Below, in pieces: positions 14,537 to 64,000 of a stretch of 64,000 bases of DNA (position 1 is its first letter; every line of letters starts with the position of its first letter). The position numbers and the translations under genes are program-made. The stretch covers positions 2,356,001 through 2,420,000 of the forward strand of contig NC_010175.1 of NCBI RefSeq assembly GCF_000018865.1, given 5' to 3'. Under the pieces are notes generated by a model, which worked only from the letters and a program-made list of their open reading frames with translations, was not told the DNA's origin and ran no database searches. Origin of the DNA: Chloroflexus aurantiacus J-10-fl (lineage in GTDB: Bacteria > Chloroflexota > Chloroflexia > Chloroflexales > Chloroflexaceae).

Positions 14537-14640
14537 GGGGGTGGTTAGGAAATAGGATGTAGAAGATAGGATATAGGGTGTAGGATATAAGATATCGTGG
14601 GGCTGAAGCTCTTGCTCACGATGTGCAAGTTCCTGCGGGA

Positions 14641-23022: not shown

Positions 23023-23161
23023 CCGGATGGGCAGGTTGCCATCACCACTGGTTGGGTGTGGTGATCATCTGGTATGTTGTTAATGTTGTCGTCTCTGCAA
23101 TCGACATAGCCTGGGTAATGGTATGGGCAATACACCGCTGGTCGCCAGGTAACAGAGGGTT

Positions 23162-23183
23162 AACACAGGCCGAGTCCTGTGTT
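23162..23183 (+). terminator. hairpin in unit 1 of the tandem duplication
   Basis: AACACAGG, loop CCGAGT, CCTGTGTT and then TTCCC. A probable intrinsic terminator for the MFS gene, repeated exactly at 23311-23332. Confidence 0.45.
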
Positions 23184-23310
23184 TTCCCGTAAAGATGCGG
23201 CAGGTATTGATCATCGTCTGGTATGTTGTTAATGTTGTCGTCTCTGCAATCGACATAGCCTGGGTAATGGTATGGGCAATACACCGCTGGTCGCCAGGTA
23301 ACAGAGGGTT

Positions 23311-23332
23311 AACACAGGCCGAGTCCTGTGTT
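23311..23332 (+). terminator. hairpin in unit 2 of the tandem duplication
   Basis: Exact copy of the 23162-23183 hairpin in the second unit. On the minus strand it could serve the hydrolase gene, whose stop codon lies about 60 bases away. Confidence 0.4.
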
Positions 23333-23395
23333 TTCCCGTAAAGATGCGGCAGGTATTGATCATAGTCGGATAATCACAGGTTGCCGGGTACCTGA

Positions 23396-54531: not shown

Positions 54532-57521
54532 CCAACGTTGACCGCGAAGACTCGATCACGGCAACAAACGTGAAGCTGACCGATATTGTGCCAGAAGGTG
54601 CCGAATTCGTCAGCAGTGTGCGCGGCGCGGAACGCACCAATTTTCCCCCTACGCAGACGATCATTGATGGTCGTCCGGCACTGGTCTGGACAATAGATCG
54701 GCTTGAGCGTGGACAAACGGTTGACATCTTCGTCACGTTCCGCAAGCTCGATCTCAGTCCGTGTGATCGTATGAAAAACGAAAAAGCGGGCTATTATGTC
54801 ACCAGTGATGAGATACCATTCCAACCTGAAAGCACTACTGACCGCTATCGGGTTCCACCTCAGACCGGCGACGTGACCTACAATGTGCGGCCACCGGTAG
54901 ATGTTGTATTTGGTTCAACCCAGACCGTAATCTTTGGTGAACGTGGAAGCTTTAGTTTCAAAGTGCGTAACTATTGGCCGGCGGCCCTGAATGGCTTACA
55001 GGTTCGGATCGTTCTTCAGCCGAATGTACGCTACGTGAACGGAACCGCATCACCGGTTGGTACATTTACCGCCCTGCCTCCCTCGTCAGGCGATGGTGGC
55101 ACGTTAATCTGGACATTCAACATGGCGGCGGGGAATATCAATACCCCGGTCGAGCAGAGTTTCTCTTTTGAGGTGACCGCTCGCTATTCAACTGTGGGTA
55201 ATGGGAGTGGATCGGGGACAACCTATGCCAGTGTTGTCGTGCCCAGTGGTGTACCATCCAATTGTAACGATGGTGATGGTGGTGGTTTTAAGGTTATGCC
55301 TCGATTAGAGGTAGCCAAGTATTCAGAGGCTGATCGCAGCGGAACGAACTACATTGCCCGCAATAATCAGCCATTCCAGTACATTATTTCACTCACTAAC
55401 ATCGGCTCTAGCCAGATGACCGGCATTGACGTCTACGATCTATTACCCACCGGAAATCAGGCTGACTTCACCTACGTAGCCAACAGTGCCACGATTGACA
55501 ACGGAAATATTGATGATGGTATCCCCTTTGAGCCGACAGTTAGCTCAACCAGTACCAATTCTGGTGTGCGTACAACCCTGATCTGGTCAGATATTACGCT
55601 GGCACCGGGAGAGACGCGCTACATTCGCTACAATGTGATAACGCGCGGTGAGTTCAACCGCACCTACTGTAATGACCTTGACCAGCAACGCATGGAAGAG
55701 GCGCTGATTAACCCTGACACGAATCAGCCTGGCGAAGATATTACCTTCAAGAGTGCTCGTGCCTGTGTCAGAATGATTCCCAACATTCAAGTCAGCAAGG
55801 TGTTTAGCGATCAGAATGGCGCCGATCTTGGTACAACCCGTATCATTACCGGTCCGGTACCAGCCGGAGGGCAGACGATCTACTTTACCCTGACAATCAC
55901 CAACGCCGAAACCACCAATACCTACACGGCTGGCCTGGTCGATTTTGCCCCGCAAGAGCTGGCCTTCCAGGCGGTTGAATTCAGCAACCTACCGGTTGAC
56001 AAGCGTCTGCCGGACATCAGCGGTAGCAACCCCTGGACATGGCCAACGCTGTCAATTGCACCCGGCCAGAGTTACACGGTACGGATACGCGCTCTGTTCA
56101 ATCCGCCATGTGTGACTGATGAATACAGTAATCGGGTAGGCTACTCCTTCTTTGATCCCTCAACCGGACGCACCACCGTGGTGTCGCCACGCCCGCCGAT
56201 TGAAGCGGTTATTGACTATCGCTGCGGCAGTAACCGGCTCGATTTCGATATTAAAGCCGAGCGCACAACCTTAGGCTTGCGTGATCGCGGTCTCTTCACG
56301 CTTACCGTGCGCAATCTCAACACCACTGGTACTTTAGACGGTGTCAGTGCCTATGCTATTCTGCCACCGCGCTACCTCTACAGTGAAACGGTTAGCAGTT
56401 CGCTCTACGCCTTTGCCGGTCAGCGCCCATTGGCTGATGGTCGTACTGAACTGCGCTGGCTGGTTGGCTCGATTCCGGCTGGCGGCCAAGTCGAGATTCT
56501 CTTCCGTGCTGCTGCCGCCGACATTATTGGTACAACTGAGGTGTACGCCCACGCCACCGCCAGTAATCTGCTGTCGGCAAGCTGCCGCACATCATCACGT
56601 TGTACGACCTATACCATTGACAATCAACCATACACAGTTGCCTGGGAACGAGTGACAACCCAGCCACTCCATACGTACACGCCGCGGATTGAGGGTCTCA
56701 GCCAGTGTACATCGGCTGGTGACGAGCGTGTCTACACGCTCACCCTGCTCAATACGAATGTGATACCCTACCGCAATACCGTGGTCACGCTGACCTTACC
56801 CATCGGTTTGCAGTACATACGTCCCGATACCGGTTCGCCGGCACCGAACAGTATCATTCCGATTACAAGTGGTTCGCTGGCCGGCTCTACCCAACTGGTC
56901 TGGCGCGATCTAACCGTACCGGCCAAACCATCTGGCAGCAACGTCAGCGAGTTGTCGCTGGCAATCTGGCTGCGGGTTGGTCAGGTCTGGAGCGATCAGG
57001 GGACCAGTGCCGAAGTGACTAGTCCTGATGGGATTATCCCGATTACCGACGGCGAAGTGAACCCAACAGTACGGATCTGTGTCGATGGGCCGGCAGTCGC
57101 CAAGACAGCGAGTATTACCACACTGCCACCGTACAATCCGGGCGATCCCAATCCGACCTTCTTCTACCAGATCGAGGTCGTCAATCCAACTGCCAGTGCG
57201 TTTACCATCACATTGCGCGATGTCTTACCTGCCGGTTTGACCTTCAACGCAATGGTTAGCGGAACAGCACCGCAGATCAGCACCAGCGCTGGCCGCACTG
57301 TGCTAACATGGAACAATCTCAGCGTACCTGCCCAAAGCGGCGACACACCTGGGCGGCGCACACTGCTCTTCCGGGTAACGGCGAATCCGAGCCAGATCAG
57401 TGGCAGTCTCACCAACACTGTTGAGATTGTGAACAGTTCTGTCCCGATTGGATCACAACTCCTGGAAGCCCCGGTTTCGCTGAGTGTACCGCGTCTGTGG
57501 GTACCGCTGGTTGCCCGCTAA
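54522..57521 (+). CDS. large secreted DUF11 surface protein, 3' part
   Basis: The downstream part (about 1000 residues) of the same surface protein; its first codon here (TTG, 54522) is not a real start because the DUF11 strand already begins near 54489. It contains repeated DUF11-type beta-sandwich domains (NVKLTDIVPEGAEFVSSV, QPFQYIISLTNIGSS, LLPTGNQADFTYVANSATID, FFYQIEVVNPTASAF, RDVLPAGLTFN), as found in bacterial surface stalk proteins. The protein ends RLWVPLVAR. That end matches YTPLVLR in the FG-GAP protein, suggesting a shared sorting or attachment signal. Cell-surface location is inferred. A terminator follows at once. Confidence 0.8.
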   Translation: MRLTNVDREDSITATNVKLTDIVPEGAEFVSSVRGAERTNFPPTQTIIDGRPALVWTIDRLERGQTVDIFVTFRKLDLSPCDRMKNEKAGYYVTSDEIPFQPESTTDRYRVPPQTGDVTYNVRPPVDVVFGSTQTVIFGERGSFSFKVRNYWPAALNGLQVRIVLQPNVRYVNGTASPVGTFTALPPSSGDGGTLIWTFNMAAGNINTPVEQSFSFEVTARYSTVGNGSGSGTTYASVVVPSGVPSNCNDGDGGGFKVMPRLEVAKYSEADRSGTNYIARNNQPFQYIISLTNIGSSQMTGIDVYDLLPTGNQADFTYVANSATIDNGNIDDGIPFEPTVSSTSTNSGVRTTLIWSDITLAPGETRYIRYNVITRGEFNRTYCNDLDQQRMEEALINPDTNQPGEDITFKSARACVRMIPNIQVSKVFSDQNGADLGTTRIITGPVPAGGQTIYFTLTITNAETTNTYTAGLVDFAPQELAFQAVEFSNLPVDKRLPDISGSNPWTWPTLSIAPGQSYTVRIRALFNPPCVTDEYSNRVGYSFFDPSTGRTTVVSPRPPIEAVIDYRCGSNRLDFDIKAERTTLGLRDRGLFTLTVRNLNTTGTLDGVSAYAILPPRYLYSETVSSSLYAFAGQRPLADGRTELRWLVGSIPAGGQVEILFRAAAADIIGTTEVYAHATASNLLSASCRTSSRCTTYTIDNQPYTVAWERVTTQPLHTYTPRIEGLSQCTSAGDERVYTLTLLNTNVIPYRNTVVTLTLPIGLQYIRPDTGSPAPNSIIPITSGSLAGSTQLVWRDLTVPAKPSGSNVSELSLAIWLRVGQVWSDQGTSAEVTSPDGIIPITDGEVNPTVRICVDGPAVAKTASITTLPPYNPGDPNPTFFYQIEVVNPTASAFTITLRDVLPAGLTFNAMVSGTAPQISTSAGRTVLTWNNLSVPAQSGDTPGRRTLLFRVTANPSQISGSLTNTVEIVNSSVPIGSQLLEAPVSLSVPRLWVPLVAR

Positions 57522-57528
57522 CCGATAT

Positions 57529-57556
57529 GGGGGTGTGCTTTAGCAAGCGCACCCCC
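57529..57556 (+). terminator. terminator of the DUF11 gene
   Basis: GGGGGTGTGCTT and AAGCGCACCCCC form a 12-bp stem (one G-U) with loop TAGC, eight bases after the stop codon. TTGCTC follows, a weak T-tract. Confidence 0.65.
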
Positions 57557-57575
57557 TTGCTCAACGGAGCTATCC

Positions 57576-57788
57576 ATGAACTGCTGGCATTGTAACCGTC
57601 CGGCCCATGGCACGTGTATCTTCTGCGGTCGTGCGATTTGTCGCGATCACGCTCAGGAAATGCCGCATATCGTTGCCCTCTTCGCCGACCGCAAAGGGGG
57701 ACACAAAGCAATCGTCACAGCGCGTGCCCTCTTCTGTGGTCTGTGCGAACCTCGCGAAGATCCGATTGAACTGCCTGAATTGCGTTAG
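57576..57788 (+). CDS. small zinc-binding protein of unknown function
   Basis: A 70-residue protein beginning MNCWHCNRPAHGTCIFCGRAIC and containing CxxC pairs at CWHC, CIFC and FCGLC, plus a Cys-Arg-Asp-His segment. It should bind one or two zinc ions. It resembles DUF2180-like small zinc proteins, but I do not assign a function. AACGGAGC precedes the ATG. It follows the terminator of the DUF11 gene, so it is a separate transcription unit. Confidence 0.6.
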   Translation: MNCWHCNRPAHGTCIFCGRAICRDHAQEMPHIVALFADRKGGHKAIVTARALFCGLCEPREDPIELPELR

Positions 57789-57948
57789 ATGCTGCTTAAG
57801 AATCAGCATCGGCAATTCATCGCGAAGATTTGCGTAAAGTTATCGTGAAGATAAGTAAACCGTTATCCCATGGCCATGATCAGCGTGGTATAATGCGGGT
57901 GGGCCATGTCCGCCCCAATCCTTTCCCCTGACGTCATGAGGTGAACCT

Positions 57949-58182
57949 ATGCCAATGTACGAATATGGCTGTCTGGACTGTGCGCGCCAGTTTGAACGGC
58001 TCCTGCCGATGAATGCGACCGATCAGCAGATTGTTTGTCCATTTTGCCAGAGCACCCATGTCCGGCGTCGGCTCTCTGTGTTCGCGACGCAGAGCCGCGG
58101 TGATGCAGCCGTTGCGGCGACGACGACGACAACTGGTGGCGGGTGCGGTTGCAGTGGCTGTAGTTGTGGCTCAAGGAGCTAA
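57949..58182 (+). CDS. FmdB-family zinc ribbon protein
   Basis: A 77-residue protein with the FmdB start MPMYEYGCLDCARQFERL and a second pair CPFCQSTHVRRRLS, forming a zinc ribbon. The C-terminal tail is Thr/Gly-rich and ends in a cysteine cluster, GGGCGCSGCSCGSRS, common in this family. FmdB proteins were named as regulators of formamidase or amidase genes; here the role is unknown. It is four bases upstream of the nucleotidyltransferase gene. Confidence 0.8.
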   Translation: MPMYEYGCLDCARQFERLLPMNATDQQIVCPFCQSTHVRRRLSVFATQSRGDAAVAATTTTTGGGCGCSGCSCGSRS

Positions 58183-58185
58183 AGT

Positions 58186-59160
58186 ATGCGCGTTATGATC
58201 CTGACAGCCGGCCTCGGTACTCGCCTGCGCCCACATACCTTTGTGCGTCCCAAGCCATTGGTGAGTGTTGCCGGAAAGACGGTGTTGGCTCACATTATCG
58301 ATTATCTGGCCCCCCTTCAGATCGACGAACTGATCTGTGTGGTTGGTTATCTGGGTAACCAGATCGAAGAGTTTATGCGGGCCAACTACACCTATCCAAT
58401 GCGCTTCCTTGAACAGAAGGTAATGCGCGGGCAGGCCGATGCTATTGCTCTCGCCCGCGAGCTGACCGGGCCGCTGCTGGTGGTGTTCGGCGACGGGTTG
58501 CTGGAGTTTGATATTGAACAGCTCAATCAGCATCCCAATTACGGCATTATCTACTGCAAGGAAGTTGACGATCCGCGCCGTTTCGGTGTTGTGGTGGTCG
58601 AACAAGGCCGTATCGTGCGGCTGGTGGAGAAGCCGAGTGAGCCGATTTCCAATCTGGCTGTGGCCGGTATCTATTATGTACCAGAGGCTGCCCGGCTGAT
58701 GTCAGCGATCGACTACATTATGCAGAACAACATTCAAACCAAGGGCGAGTTCTATCTGGCAGATGCTCTTCAGGTAATGATCGACCGCGGTGAGGAATTA
58801 CGTGCTGAAACGGTGCGAACCTGGTACGATTGCGGTACGATAGAGGCATTACTCGATACCAATCGTTATCTGCTCGATCACGGGCACAATCAGGCTGCTG
58901 AGTATCCCAATGCCGTTATTGTGCCGCCGGTGAATATTGCTCCGACAGCAGTCATCGAACATGCAGTCATTGGCCCGTATGTCTCGATTGCTGATGGTGC
59001 CGTCGTGCGGCATGCGATTGTCCGCGACTCGATTATTAACGCAGGCGCACAAATTCAGTCGGTTATTCTCAATCGCAGCCTGATCGGTGACCGTGCTTCC
59101 GTTAATGGTGTCAGTCAGGAGTTAAACGTCGGCGATTTATCTGATATTCGTTTCAGGTGA
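58186..59160 (+). CDS. sugar-1-phosphate nucleotidyltransferase
   Basis: A 324-residue NTP-transferase. MILTAGLGTRLRPHTFVRPKPLV is the nucleotide-binding signature (GxGxRxxPxT..KP), VVFGDGLLEFDIE carries the metal Asp, and VEKPSEPISNLAVAGIYY is the substrate loop. After residue ~240 comes a left-handed beta-helix-like stretch (PPVNIAPTAVIEHAVIGPYVSIADGAVV). It activates a hexose 1-phosphate to a UDP-, dTDP- or GDP-sugar; the sugar is not determined. It probably feeds cell-surface polysaccharide synthesis. It overlaps in orientation with FmdB and the AAA-like gene. Confidence 0.85.
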   Translation: MRVMILTAGLGTRLRPHTFVRPKPLVSVAGKTVLAHIIDYLAPLQIDELICVVGYLGNQIEEFMRANYTYPMRFLEQKVMRGQADAIALARELTGPLLVVFGDGLLEFDIEQLNQHPNYGIIYCKEVDDPRRFGVVVVEQGRIVRLVEKPSEPISNLAVAGIYYVPEAARLMSAIDYIMQNNIQTKGEFYLADALQVMIDRGEELRAETVRTWYDCGTIEALLDTNRYLLDHGHNQAAEYPNAVIVPPVNIAPTAVIEHAVIGPYVSIADGAVVRHAIVRDSIINAGAQIQSVILNRSLIGDRASVNGVSQELNVGDLSDIRFR

Positions 59161-59166
59161 ACAACT

Positions 59167-60228
59167 ATGATTGCTTACAACTTCCATGCTGCAAGCAATG
59201 GCGCTCGCGGCGAGGCCGAGGATGGCCGTTGGGAGTTGGCTTCGCCTGGTAACAGGCATATGCCAGCAATAGCCACTGCTGATCACGCTCCATCCTTAAG
59301 TGCTGAACAAGAGATCATTCGTCGTCTTACGGTTGCTGCCAGTCCTGCAGAAACACGCCTCTTAACCGCAGTCTACGTCTCACTCAAGACCTATCCGTGC
59401 GCGGTACTCAGTGGCAGGGCTGGAGCTGGTAAGGCAGTGTTGGTTCAGCATCTGGCCGCGGCCATTATTGGCCACACCCCCGGCCAGTTGATCCGTATCG
59501 GTTCGTCACACTGGGCCAACCACAGCGGTCAGCGTGAATACTACCGCGATCTGCACACCCGCTTTGGTGATAGTCAGTTGAATGAAGTACTCAGTGAAGC
59601 CCAATCACCGCAGGGCGCGGGGAAGCTGTACCTCGTTTTATTTGATGGCCTGGCCCCTGATGAACTCTTCCACTATCTGCACAAACGTCTGCAACTCTTG
59701 CCGGTGTCCACGCCCCCAGTAGCACCGACCGCTCCGCCGCCAGCTAATGTCTGGTTCATTGCAACCTTCCACCAGTCGCATCGGCTGTCGGTTCGTGATG
59801 CGCAAGTGCTGGCTCACGCGCATCAGATCAACGTTACTGCCTATCGCCGCTCGCTCCCATCACTTCCCCCGCCGCCGGTTGGCTTACAGCGCGCCGTGAT
59901 CCGTGACTCCTTGCACGATGTCGTCGCAGCTCGTGATCGCTTGCGTACCGTGTTTGGCAGCACGCAGTTGCCTCAGCTCAGTCCTTCCGCGCACATTGCC
60001 GGCTTTCTGCGCTGGTATGGGCTGACGCCCGATACCACTCTCGATAGCGATATGTGGCTGTTCCTGGCTAACAGTTTCGACCGCCACGGCTATGGCTTGT
60101 TTGATACCGATGTGTATCGCAATCTTCAAATTGCTTATGATCTGCGGATGGTGCAACGCATTATGGCCCAGCTCGACCCGGCGAACGCAGCACTGCGGCC
60201 TGAACTGGCCCGAGCGGTTGGATGTTAG
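59167..60228 (+). CDS. AAA-like P-loop protein of unknown function
   Basis: A 353-residue protein with a P-loop ATPase-like core: SGRAGAGKAVLVQHLAAAI (Walker A shape but with Ala where Thr/Ser is expected), LYLVLFDGLAPDE as a Walker B-like strand, and NVWFIATFHQSHRL as a sensor-like strand, resembling McrB/MCM-type AAA modules. The missing Ser/Thr may reduce ATP hydrolysis. The 3' end of the gene begins a 107-bp unit repeated three more times downstream. The TAG stop is in the first unit; the other copies have CAG there. Function unknown. Confidence 0.6.
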   Translation: MIAYNFHAASNGARGEAEDGRWELASPGNRHMPAIATADHAPSLSAEQEIIRRLTVAASPAETRLLTAVYVSLKTYPCAVLSGRAGAGKAVLVQHLAAAIIGHTPGQLIRIGSSHWANHSGQREYYRDLHTRFGDSQLNEVLSEAQSPQGAGKLYLVLFDGLAPDELFHYLHKRLQLLPVSTPPVAPTAPPPANVWFIATFHQSHRLSVRDAQVLAHAHQINVTAYRRSLPSLPPPPVGLQRAVIRDSLHDVVAARDRLRTVFGSTQLPQLSPSAHIAGFLRWYGLTPDTTLDSDMWLFLANSFDRHGYGLFDTDVYRNLQIAYDLRMVQRIMAQLDPANAALRPELARAVGC

Positions 60229-60588
60229 GCAGAGTGATTAACGACAGATGAGGTTGCTTGATGCAGCTTATGGCCCAGCTCGACCAGGCGAACGCAGCAC
60301 TGCGGCCTGAGCTGGCCCGGGCGGTTGGATGTCAGGCAGAGTGATTAACGACGGATGAGGTTGCTTGATGCAGCTTATGGCCCAGCTCGACCCGGCGAAC
60401 GCAGCACTGCGGCCTGAACTGGCCCGGGCGGTTGGATGTCAGGCAGAGTGATTAACGACGGATGAGGTTGCTTGATGCAGCTTATGGCCCAGCTCGACCC
60501 GGCGAACGCAGCACTGCGGCCTGAACTGGCCCGGGCGGTTGGATGTCAGGCAGAGTGATTAACGACAGATGAGGTTGCTTGATGCAGC
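60163..60588 (+). repeat. 107-bp tandem repeat, four copies, derived from the 3' end of the AAA-like gene
   Basis: ATGGCCCAGCTCGAC starts units at 60163, 60270, 60377 and 60484, exactly 107 bases apart, with a few point differences. The first unit contains the end of the AAA-like gene. Each of the next three carries an ATG-to-TGA frame of 27 codons, beginning MQLMAQLD and ending AVGCQAE (for example 60261-60344). Because 107 is not a multiple of three, the copies are in different frames. A hairpin follows directly. Confidence 0.85.
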
Positions 60589-60590
60589 GT

Positions 60591-60616
60591 GAGGGGCGCA
60601 TGACCGTGCGCCCCTC
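60591..60616. terminator. hairpin after the tandem repeat
   Basis: GAGGGGCGCA and TGCGCCCCTC form a perfect 10-bp stem with a six-base loop, followed by CTCTATG. It shares the GGGGCGCA core with the hairpin at 19591-19622. It can serve the AAA-like gene or, on the other strand, the mannosyltransferase gene. Confidence 0.55.
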
Positions 60617-60809
60617 CTCTATGCACTGCCGGGGAATGGTGATGGCATACCACATCGTGTATAAAACCTGCCGCAACGTTGGCAGTGCGGCGTTAGCACG
60701 GCACACCGGCAGCAAGATGCAAGATCACGCTTGCCATCTGAACAGTGTATCATGACGCCATCTGTGACAGAATACATCTGCTGACAGAGCCAGCCTGAAC
60801 CTCTACACC

Positions 60810-61901
60810 TCACCGCACCAGTGCCGCCAGTGTTGCATCATACTGCGCAACCAGGCTTTCCCAGCGGTAAGGGCGGGCCACTGCCGACCAATCGTAGCGC
60901 GTCAGCCGTGGCAGGTCGCCGATCAATCGCGCAAGTGCGTTCGGCAAATCGGCATCGTCTGCGTAAAGACAGTCGGCGTGCCATTCCGGCGGAATCAGAT
61001 CAGGGTAGTTGAGCCGTGCCGGCAAAAGTGGCACACAACCACAGGCGATTGCTTCAAGGATCGCAATCCCAAAATATTCCTGAATCGCTGCCGACACAAC
61101 AATATCGGCCTGACGTAATAATGCGAGGTATGTCTGGCGATCTCCGGCATAGCCCCAGTGAATGGTGTGATCTGCCCAGCGCCGGCGGGCAGCTATCAGA
61201 TCAGGGGCAGTTGGATCAATATGCTCACCGGTCACAATCAGGCGAAATCGTACCCCACGCTCTGCCAGATATTCCAGAGCAGCCATTACAACGTGCGGCT
61301 GTTTATCATACTCCCAACGGGCATTCCAAAGGATAACCGGTGGTGCGGTTGGGTCACGCGGTTGCCGTGGCGGTAGCGGTGGCAGATCAAGACCGGGTGG
61401 TAACACCTGCGCTTTTGCCGCAATCTGCTCGACGGTCTGTAGTTCGTGGTAATCGTGATAGCGGCGGAGCATGCCCGGCAGCGCCGCCAGCCAGTCTCGC
61501 CGATGAAAAGCGGAATTGAACAACACGGTATCGGCTACCAGAGCACTGGTGAAATTGATCCAGGCAAATGTGTAGTCGCGCTTGCGCTCTGGCGGGATGG
61601 GATACGTAAGCTGGTTTTCGTGAAAATAGAGTGCTACCGGAATGTGCCCCAATTGGCGATAGGTCAACGCCCGAAAGGTCGCCAGATCGAGCATATCAGT
61701 GGCAACGATGACATCAGGCCATTCAGACAAATCGGCTACCAGGCGAGCCAGGGTCACTGCCCCGCCGCGCATTCGCCAGCGCCATCCGCCGGCCTGACTG
61801 AGGGTGATGAGTCTGACGCGGTGGGTGCTATGGGCAGCATAGCCGCTTGCTACTGCTGCGTGTGACCCACCATGAAATGGATCAAGCCACCAGATCAACA
61901 T
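60810..61901 (-). CDS. tRNA-queuosine mannosyltransferase-like glycosyltransferase (QTMAN/GTDC1 family)
   Basis: A 363-residue glycosyltransferase with the DUF3524 N-terminal domain of the GTDC1/QTMAN family: WWLDPFHGGSHAAVASGY, WRWRMRGGAVTLA, DMLDLATFRAL, YFHENQLTYP and VLFNSAFHR. The C-terminal GT4-like part has ILWNARWEYDKQP and QEYFGIAILEAIACGCVPLLP. In animals QTMAN adds mannose to queuosine in tRNA-Asp. In bacteria the activity is not proven to my knowledge, so a tRNA-modifying role is a hypothesis from family membership. The ATG at 61901 is chosen; a TTG at 61943 that overlaps the upstream stop is the alternative. It is the last gene of a minus-strand run. Confidence 0.78.
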   Translation of the reverse strand: MLIWWLDPFHGGSHAAVASGYAAHSTHRVRLITLSQAGGWRWRMRGGAVTLARLVADLSEWPDVIVATDMLDLATFRALTYRQLGHIPVALYFHENQLTYPIPPERKRDYTFAWINFTSALVADTVLFNSAFHRRDWLAALPGMLRRYHDYHELQTVEQIAAKAQVLPPGLDLPPLPPRQPRDPTAPPVILWNARWEYDKQPHVVMAALEYLAERGVRFRLIVTGEHIDPTAPDLIAARRRWADHTIHWGYAGDRQTYLALLRQADIVVSAAIQEYFGIAILEAIACGCVPLLPARLNYPDLIPPEWHADCLYADDADLPNALARLIGDLPRLTRYDWSAVARPYRWESLVAQYDATLAALVR

Positions 61902-61935
61902 GTCCCGGTATCTCAGTGAGTCCTGGCGAAGGTTG

Positions 61936-62631
61936 TCACTCAATATCCACCCGCATCATATAGCGATTCACGCCTTCGATACCTAATTGAGCCTCAAGCT
62001 GAAGGAGATAGCGCAGCGGTTCGTGATACGGGTGATTTTCATCGAGCATCCGTGCTGCCGCTTTGTGGCTGCCAAGCTGCAAGAGGTGCTGATAGGCCAC
62101 CCATTCGGCATGCCCTTCCCGCAAGAACTCGTTGCGCAGCAGGGGGCAATGCTCGGCTTGCCAGGCATGGGCATATTCATGAGCTGCTGTGATGCGGAAG
62201 ATGAGTGTCGGCAGGCCATACAGCAGATAGATCACACGCACATGATTCTGGCGGCGGTATAAGCCGAGAGTATCCTGTCCAGGTGGAGTTGGACCACGCA
62301 AACGGGCCATTGTTGGTGCATCAACCAGCCGGAACGCCACCCCCACATGAAGCCGTAATCCCATGCCTTCAGCCAGCATACCCGCAGTTTGTTGAAACAA
62401 GTGTTGAGCCTGTACCGGATCGTAAATCGCGACCGCGTGGCAGGCATCGCATTGCTGGCGGCCATCGTGCAGTTTCCAGAAGTGGTTCCCCAGCGGTGCG
62501 CCACAAGTGCTGCATCGTGGCCGCGTCGCAATACATTGAGGGCAAAACCGTTCTGGCCGGTTGATCAAGACATAATAACTACCAGTAAGCGGCTGTCCAC
62601 AACTGGCACAATGCACATGATCAGCGGCCAT
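61936..62631 (-). CDS. DA1-like zinc peptidase with N-terminal zinc ribbons
   Basis: A 231-residue protein. The N-terminal ~75 residues hold CxxC pairs (CASCGQPL, CPQC, CSTCGAPL, CDAC), LIM/zinc-ribbon-like. The C-terminal part carries the metallopeptidase motif HEYAHAWQAE, followed after about 18 residues by LREGHAEWVAYQ, as in DA1-type peptidases. Eukaryotic DA1 is a ubiquitin-activated peptidase; here substrates are unknown. It ends where a possible TTG start of the mannosyltransferase begins and starts 11 bases after the esterase stop, so it is in an operon. Confidence 0.78.
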   Translation of the reverse strand: MAADHVHCASCGQPLTGSYYVLINRPERFCPQCIATRPRCSTCGAPLGNHFWKLHDGRQQCDACHAVAIYDPVQAQHLFQQTAGMLAEGMGLRLHVGVAFRLVDAPTMARLRGPTPPGQDTLGLYRRQNHVRVIYLLYGLPTLIFRITAAHEYAHAWQAEHCPLLRNEFLREGHAEWVAYQHLLQLGSHKAAARMLDENHPYHEPLRYLLQLEAQLGIEGVNRYMMRVDIE

Positions 62632-62642
62632 AGCCTACCTGC

Positions 62643-63311
62643 CTACGCGAGATCGTGCGGTGGCGGGGCGTCGAGCTGTTCGGCCAACCAGTGCTGCATC
62701 AGGCTCAAGCCATTTGGATGCAGACTGTGTCCTACCGGGTCTTCATGATAGCGATGGCGTGGTGCGTATTGGGCCAGCACATCACGGGTCGCTCGTGCCT
62801 GTTCAACCGGAATGACTTCATCGTAGGTGCCGTGCAATTGCAAGATCGGCAGACGGGCAATGCCGGCAGCGGGTGGTTGTGTGGTCAGGGCCGGATCAAG
62901 GTAGCCGTTCGCTGCAATCACGCCGGCCAGGTGTTCGGGAATGCGCCAGGCCAGCGCCATACTGAGAATCGCCCCCTGGCTAAAGCCGAACAGATAGGTT
63001 CGCCGCGGATCAGTTCCGATCCGGCCAGGCAATTCGCTGACAAACTTGATCAGCAACTCGATGGCCTGCGCCCGACCCACCGGATCGGGAACGAGCCGAC
63101 CGGGTGTACCACTTAGCTCATACCAGGCAAAGCCGCCCCACGGCAACGCAATCGGTGCCCGGGCACTCACGATATGCATCCGGTCGTCAATCAGATCGGC
63201 AAGCTCGAAGAGATCGCGTTCGTGACTCCCGAAACCGTGCAGCATCAGTAACAACGGTGCCGGTCCGCTCTCGATAATTGGCCTGCGTTCAATAGTACGA
63301 ATTGTTGTCAT
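62643..63311 (-). CDS. phospholipase/carboxylesterase family hydrolase
   Basis: A 222-residue serine hydrolase of the carboxylesterase/phospholipase (YpfH/EstB) type. LLLMLHGFGSHERDLFEL holds the oxyanion region, LFGFSQGAILSMALA the nucleophile Ser, and LHGTYDEVIPVEQAR the Asp; the His is near the end in PVGHSLHPNGL. No signal peptide. Its start overlaps the LysM gene's stop as ATGA, so they are translated together. Confidence 0.85.
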   Translation of the reverse strand: MTTIRTIERRPIIESGPAPLLLMLHGFGSHERDLFELADLIDDRMHIVSARAPIALPWGGFAWYELSGTPGRLVPDPVGRAQAIELLIKFVSELPGRIGTDPRRTYLFGFSQGAILSMALAWRIPEHLAGVIAANGYLDPALTTQPPAAGIARLPILQLHGTYDEVIPVEQARATRDVLAQYAPRHRYHEDPVGHSLHPNGLSLMQHWLAEQLDAPPPHDLA

Positions 63312-63877
63312 GGAATCACCAGTTCCTGTCCAACTTGCAGGTTATCCCCCTGGGCTGGAGTGAGATTATTGGCTTGCAAGAGTGCCTCAATTGTAACCCC
63401 AAATTGCTCAGCAATCGTCCGCAATGTATCACCGGCCTGCACCGTGTACCGTCGTGGGCCACTTTCCGTTGGGGCGAGGGTAGGTGTCGGTTCCGGTGTT
63501 GGTTCAACGGTTGGCGTTGGTTCAGACGTTGGAGATGGTTCTGGTGTTGCGGTTGCCGTTATCGTGACCGTTGGCCGTGGTGTCAGGGTTGGTAACACCG
63601 GCAATGTTGGCATTATCAATGGTTCTTCACTCATTGTATCAACGACCGGCGGCACCCACGCCGGGAGGATCGTTAGATCGCCGATCCGTAGTGGCGGTAA
63701 CGGGTTGCGGGCGATAGTCAACAGGGCAACGGCTGCCATCACAAGGATGGTCGTCATCCCGGCGGCGATGCCGATGCTACCAATCAAGTGCTGCACCATT
63801 CGCAACACGAGGGCGCCGACCAGTGGTGCCAGCAAGATAAAGAGGAGTAAGAGCCAGAGTGTCGTTTCAGTCAGCAT
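63308..63877 (-). CDS. membrane protein with C-terminal LysM domain
   Basis: A 189-residue protein with two hydrophobic segments near the N-terminus (LWLLLLFILLAPLVGALVL and ITILVMAAVALLTIA-like), a long Pro/Thr/Glu-rich linker (~85-140, PTxEPTPEPTPT type) and one C-terminal LysM domain (YTVQAGDTLRTIAEQFGVTI ... LQVGQELVIP). LysM binds peptidoglycan or chitin-like N-acetylglucosamine polymers, so the protein probably links membrane and cell wall. It lies 44 bases after the LytR-type gene and overlaps the esterase gene by ATGA. Confidence 0.85.
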   Translation of the reverse strand: MLTETTLWLLLLFILLAPLVGALVLRMVQHLIGSIGIAAGMTTILVMAAVALLTIARNPLPPLRIGDLTILPAWVPPVVDTMSEEPLIMPTLPVLPTLTPRPTVTITATATPEPSPTSEPTPTVEPTPEPTPTLAPTESGPRRYTVQAGDTLRTIAEQFGVTIEALLQANNLTPAQGDNLQVGQELVIP

Positions 63878-63921
63878 ATAATATGCTCAATCCCAGGTCA
63901 TTGCTTGACAAGAACGTACTG

Positions 63922-64000
63922 TTATGGTGCCATTGCCCAGGCTGGATCGTAATCCTGTCCGATCAACAACACAATATCCGCTCCCAATGGTTGCGGGGGC
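63922..64000 (-). CDS. LytR-type protein, C-terminal end (partial)
   Basis: Only the last 25 codons are in the window, reading PPQPLGADIVLLIGQDYDPAW before the stop. GADIVLLIGQD matches the end of the LytR_C domain seen in LytR-CpsA-Psr cell-wall ligases. The rest of the gene lies beyond the right edge. Its position upstream of the LysM gene fits a cell-envelope operon. Confidence 0.6.
   Translation of the reverse strand, partial: PPQPLGADIVLLIGQDYDPAWAMAP

Follow-up and report, generated by a model that had tools for sequence, protein, structure and literature searches.

A 107-bp tandem array over the 3' end of a P-loop-like protein gene in Chloroflexus aurantiacus, most likely a neutral minisatellite

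Why should the last part of a gene stand four times, head to tail, in the chromosome of Chloroflexus aurantiacus, and do the extra copies matter to the gene or its product? The array lies in the window, a stretch of 64,000 nucleotides that we analysed as a whole (bases 2356001-2420000 of NC_010175.1, the one contig of 5,258,541 bp that makes up the genome). Our analysis indicates that it is a true minisatellite over the 3' end of a gene, of a common kind and most likely neutral. We consider it very likely that it is a young, lineage-specific array that arose by local duplication followed by slippage or unequal exchange, and that it is probably neutral, with no function beyond a longer stretch between stop codon and hairpin. 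We infer this absence of function from the absence of signals.

Four units at a single site

The original prediction held that the terminal segment of the gene occurs in four copies at an exact spacing of 107 bp. Tandem Repeats Finder reported an array at 60161-60588 with a period of 107, 4.0 copies, 97% matches, no indels and a score of 814, and a separate repeat search spaced the units at 107, 107 and 107 as well. The copy number and spacing are therefore borne out; of the predicted span, 60163-60588, the right edge stands and the left edge moves two bases upstream (Table 1). In 100 dinucleotide-preserving shuffles of the window, arrays with periods of at least 50 were absent. The locus thus consists, like a minisatellite, of head-to-tail copies of one unit, far above what is expected by chance.

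Table 1. Features of the array and its surroundings, in window coordinates
Feature	Position	Strand	Description	Basis
353-aa P-loop-like protein gene	59167..60228	+	last 21 codons and stop inside unit 1	ORF, homologues, alignment
Repeat unit 1	60161..60267	+	genic: gene 3' end, TAG stop (60226-60228), 39 nt beyond stop	
Repeat unit 2	60268..60374	+	CAG replaces TAG; two private substitutions	
Repeat unit 3	60375..60481	+	CAG	
Repeat unit 4	60482..60588	+	CAG	
27-codon frame, first copy	60261..60344	+	begins at end of unit 1; GAGGT 6 nt before ATG; probably no gene	
27-codon frame, second copy	60368..60451	+	probably no gene	sequence only
27-codon frame, third copy	60475..60558	+	probably no gene	sequence only
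Hairpin, probable transcript end	60591..60616	+	10-bp stem, 6-nt loop; 2 nt past array	

The units vary at 5 of 107 positions, and any two of them differ at 1 to 5 (two differences between units 1 and 4, one between 3 and 4, two between 2 and 3, three between 1 and 3 and between 2 and 4, and five between 1 and 2). Unit 1 is alone in having A at position 53 and T at position 66, the first base of its TAG; position 86 is G in units 2 and 3 and A in units 1 and 4. The resulting chain of differences, from unit 1 through 4 and 3 to 2, fits a history in which the outer units would be the oldest and the inner ones later additions. Repeats are a known source of misassembly, and a single unit might have been expanded by the assembly. 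However, five variable positions set the units apart, and the genome, assembled as a single contig, has arrays built of other units at further places. With differences at such informative sites, copies invented by an assembler are unlikely, and we regard an artefact of this kind as extremely improbable.

A search of the genome with unit 1 at E up to 10 returned 21 matches, of which four were the units themselves and 17 were short, the strongest of these at E = 0.075 over 20 bases and the longest covering 26 bases; no full match to the unit lies outside the array. Searches of plasmids and phages with the array gave no match at E up to 1e-5. A mobile element or dispersed repeat was rejected on these grounds, full matches being confined to the array site and plasmid or phage matches being absent, and we describe the array as local and lineage-specific rather than as a dispersed mobile repeat.

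The gene, its stop codon and the hairpin

The gene was originally called AAA-like, which holds only weakly: its best Pfam match, AAA_16, has an E-value of 0.00037 and misses the curated cut-off. Of the 61 genomes searched, its own among them, 44 contain a match to its product with an E-value of 0.001 or less; the weakest of these matches may be non-orthologues. Across the 11 sequences chosen for an alignment, the P-loop lysine does not vary. P-loops usually carry S or T after GK; in the P-loop-like motif of this family (residues 83-90), GK is followed by A in 10 of the 11 rows and by T in one distant relative.

Within the genus we compared the locus with seven other genomes, drawn from sets that hold one genome per species and from which records close to the window's own are possibly absent. 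Six of them yielded full-length orthologues, and the seventh orthologue (L031) is cut by a contig end. All six full-length proteins end at ..AVGC, with TGA as the stop in five and TAA in one. Within the stretches fetched, none of the six loci carries an array with a period of 40 or more, and unit DNA follows the gene in none of them. The gene truly ends in unit 1. Its terminal coding segment has indeed been amplified, and the amplified end (0 of six full-length congeneric orthologues) is confined to the lineage of C. aurantiacus as far as seen.

What, then, of the stop codon? As the stop falls at one and the same codon position in all six orthologues, the TAG of unit 1 stands at the ancestral stop position. 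The prediction was correct that the same base is C in units 2 to 4, giving CAG, and that a T-to-C change in unit 1 would extend the protein by three residues, Q-A-E, before a TGA. The weight that it placed on this difference does not hold up, as six orthologues stop at the same codon and CAG occurs solely in non-genic copies. Most simply, the CAG of units 2 to 4 would go back to one later change, which arose in a spare copy and spread as that copy was duplicated further. That three of the four units carry CAG would suit the opposite order, in which CAG already stood in the gene at the time of amplification, the protein ended in ..AVGCQAE, and unit 1 reverted to TAG. However, with all six orthologues stopping exactly at the TAG position, this order calls for a base to change twice where a single change would do, and we think it improbable; it is compatible with all other readings of the array.

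The array ends just before a hairpin. No T run follows this hairpin, and it is therefore called a transcript end only with reserve; it is also missing from the output of a simple terminator scan. Five of the six orthologues have a hairpin (stem 9 to 11) that begins 11 to 27 nt past the stop, and over the 497 nt downstream of its stop the sixth (L015) has none whose stem reaches 7. In C. aurantiacus the distance from stop to hairpin is 362 nt, which equals 41 + 3 x 107. Given the spacing of the hairpin in the orthologues, and given that they hold neither the array nor unit DNA at this place, the array most likely grew between the stop and the hairpin in its own lineage. As a separate observation, the core of the hairpin (60593-60614, 22 nt, up to 2 mismatches) has 22 matches over both strands of its own genome, which correspond to 15 places, palindromic copies being counted on both strands. 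Such near-copies are rarer in the seven congeners, with 0 to 2 matches in each.

Origin of the array and possible functions of the copies

We hypothesize that one local tandem duplication first joined a point before 60161 to a point 2 nt before the hairpin. Microhomology is not visible at the duplication junction, and simple slippage between short direct repeats thus fails to explain this first step. A head-to-tail duplication over the 3' edge of a gene leaves copy 1 on the gene, and for this reason the protein and the hairpin would both have come through unharmed. Further units may then have been added by slippage or unequal exchange between the copies, and TAG would have changed to CAG in one copy, from which the change was carried into later units. 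Together these steps would have moved the hairpin from about 41 nt to its present distance from the stop, most likely without any other function for the array.

Could the copies be translated? The 27-codon start-to-stop frames that had been predicted are present as three ATG-to-TGA frames, which appear with 28 aa in the list of open reading frames, where a TTG directly before the ATG is included. In each of them GAGGT lies 6 nt before the ATG, a spacing that makes weak translation possible. If translated, the array would give rise to a 27-residue peptide from each of three starts, perhaps through re-initiation downstream of the main stop, and the frames together with the GAGGT-ATG spacing ahead of all three speak for such a reading. 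On the other side, the reading frame is simply that of the duplicated gene end, and the post-stop stretch in which GAGGT and ATG lie was not found in the six orthologous loci. Four of the variable positions lie in the coding portion or in the stop codon itself; one of these changes P to Q in unit 2, and this divergence is too small for selection to be shown. We therefore judge translation of the copies to be very unlikely; the frames are what a duplication of the last 21 codons of the gene leaves behind. Since 107 is no multiple of three (3 x 35 + 2) and each frame closes at a TGA, the array is also unreadable as a repeat protein, and a satellite coding for amino-acid repeats was rejected.

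The array sits between the stop and the probable terminator and is for this reason probably transcribed, a position that would suit a role as RNA or DNA, either as a structured 3' untranslated region or as a set of repeated binding sites, in tuning the stability or expression of the gene. However, the unit folds worse than most shuffled sequences (z = +1.43, with 189 of 200 at least as good), for copies 2 to 4 plus the hairpin the advantage over shuffles is slight (z = -1.12, with 15 of 100 at least as good), and the array is absent from the six full-length congeneric loci. Such a role has, in our view, a slim chance of being real. An Rfam search of 57000-64000 on both strands gave no match up to E = 1, and a structured RNA was set aside as being without support from folding or Rfam at the sensitivity used. 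The region 59900-61000 contains one terminator-like site (60668-60685, minus strand; shuffle mean 0.8) and no sigma-70-like promoter site, and a promoter reading was rejected on the latter ground.

Other arrays in the genome and comparison with known systems

The array is one of many. In an 844-kb sample of the same genome (the window plus 39 stretches, one overlapping stretch having been dropped), we counted 40 arrays with a period of 50 or more, as Tandem Repeats Finder rows after merging of overlaps above half; three of these rows, in L060, still partly overlap, and one (L096) touches the edge of its stretch. The first 444 kb contain 23 arrays, whereas G006, a congener likewise assembled as one contig, has 8 in 400 kb. 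By crude calls of open reading frames of 150 aa or more, 14 of the 40 lie inside and 15 between reading frames, 7 lie over a 3' end, 3 over a 5' end and 1 over both, and we claim no enrichment of 3' over 5' ends from 7 versus 3 of 40. Two long open reading frames elsewhere in the window flank a tandem duplication at 23064-23367 (149 bp x 2.0, copies 98% alike), and its unit includes a stem-8 hairpin with a few T after it. At 14546-14595 lies a heptamer array with the unit TAGGATA, which resembles the GATAGRA satellite family described for C. aurantiacus in the satellite text of PMC6749651.

Five of the arrays over 3' ends were compared with orthologous loci, namely the one at 60161-60588 and four further ones, L066 (145 x 4.6), L073 (194 x 2.0), L106 (213 x 2.0) and L108 (97 x 2.0). 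These four each begin within the part of the gene that aligns to orthologues. Their genes, which we take to encode a MATE transporter, an agmatine deiminase, a peroxiredoxin and cytochrome oxidase subunit I, are present in 8 of 8 genus genomes searched. An array of the same period was found in none of their 28 orthologous loci, and four of the 28 have an array of another period somewhere in the fetched stretch (L119, L132, L139 and L142). Two of these, at L119:2572-2795 and L132:1002-1329, lie just downstream of genes whose C. aurantiacus orthologues carry 3'-end arrays, and these sites are perhaps recurrent spots.

Among the 52 boundaries of the 26 arrays not inside open reading frames of 150 aa or more, three abut a hairpin (stem 8 or more) that lies outside the array. 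Random non-coding positions gave a mean of 0.61, and three were reached in 50 of 2000 trials. The idea of hairpins as breakpoints came from the array at 60161-60588, which is one of the three, and the result is for this reason a hint only. One could imagine a recurrent process in the lineage, in which forks perhaps stall and switch template at terminator hairpins, that repeatedly amplifies the final few dozen bases of genes along with the 3' untranslated stretch behind them; we consider this unlikely. If true, such amplification would leave genes intact, make transcript tails longer and provide spare 3' ends as raw material for protein extensions.

The tandem repeats of this chromosome have been surveyed before. 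Subirana and Messeguer (2019; PMC6749651) counted long-repeat satellites of C. aurantiacus (5.26 Mb, NC_010175.1), and their Table 1 gives 76 satellites, or 14.4 per Mb, 42.1% of them with repeats over 30 nt. No other single bacterial chromosome in that table has as large a count, and by density it ranks third; two Burkholderia chromosomes are denser, and both B. mallei chromosomes together hold more. Their rule for a satellite is a minimum of four repeats, each 10-260 nt long, with no fewer than 60% of them sharing one length. The array of 4 x 107 nt conforms to this by its geometry, the authors' program not having been run, and should be in their list under the rule as stated. The satellite text of that paper does not discuss gene 3' ends in C. 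aurantiacus. In the main text of the genome paper (PMC3150298), 'tandem', 'satellite' and 'palindrom' do not occur and 'repeat' occurs twice, once on the origin of replication and once in the reference list; among the papers listed on Chloroflexus tandem repeats and minisatellites, no title or abstract opening names the array.

By itself, the array matters little, as one of many local duplications in the genome of a species known to be rich in tandem repeats. It would have modest value as a possible marker for strain typing or as one case in an inquiry into why arrays accumulate at the 3' ends of genes in this lineage. VNTR loci are defined by a unit number that varies between strains, whereas this array is known from one genome. 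In other respects it is like bacterial minisatellites and VNTR loci, with near-identical, head-to-tail units of tens to hundreds of base pairs that are lineage-specific and have no shown coding role. It differs from the usual loci of this kind in that its first unit holds the real end of a gene.
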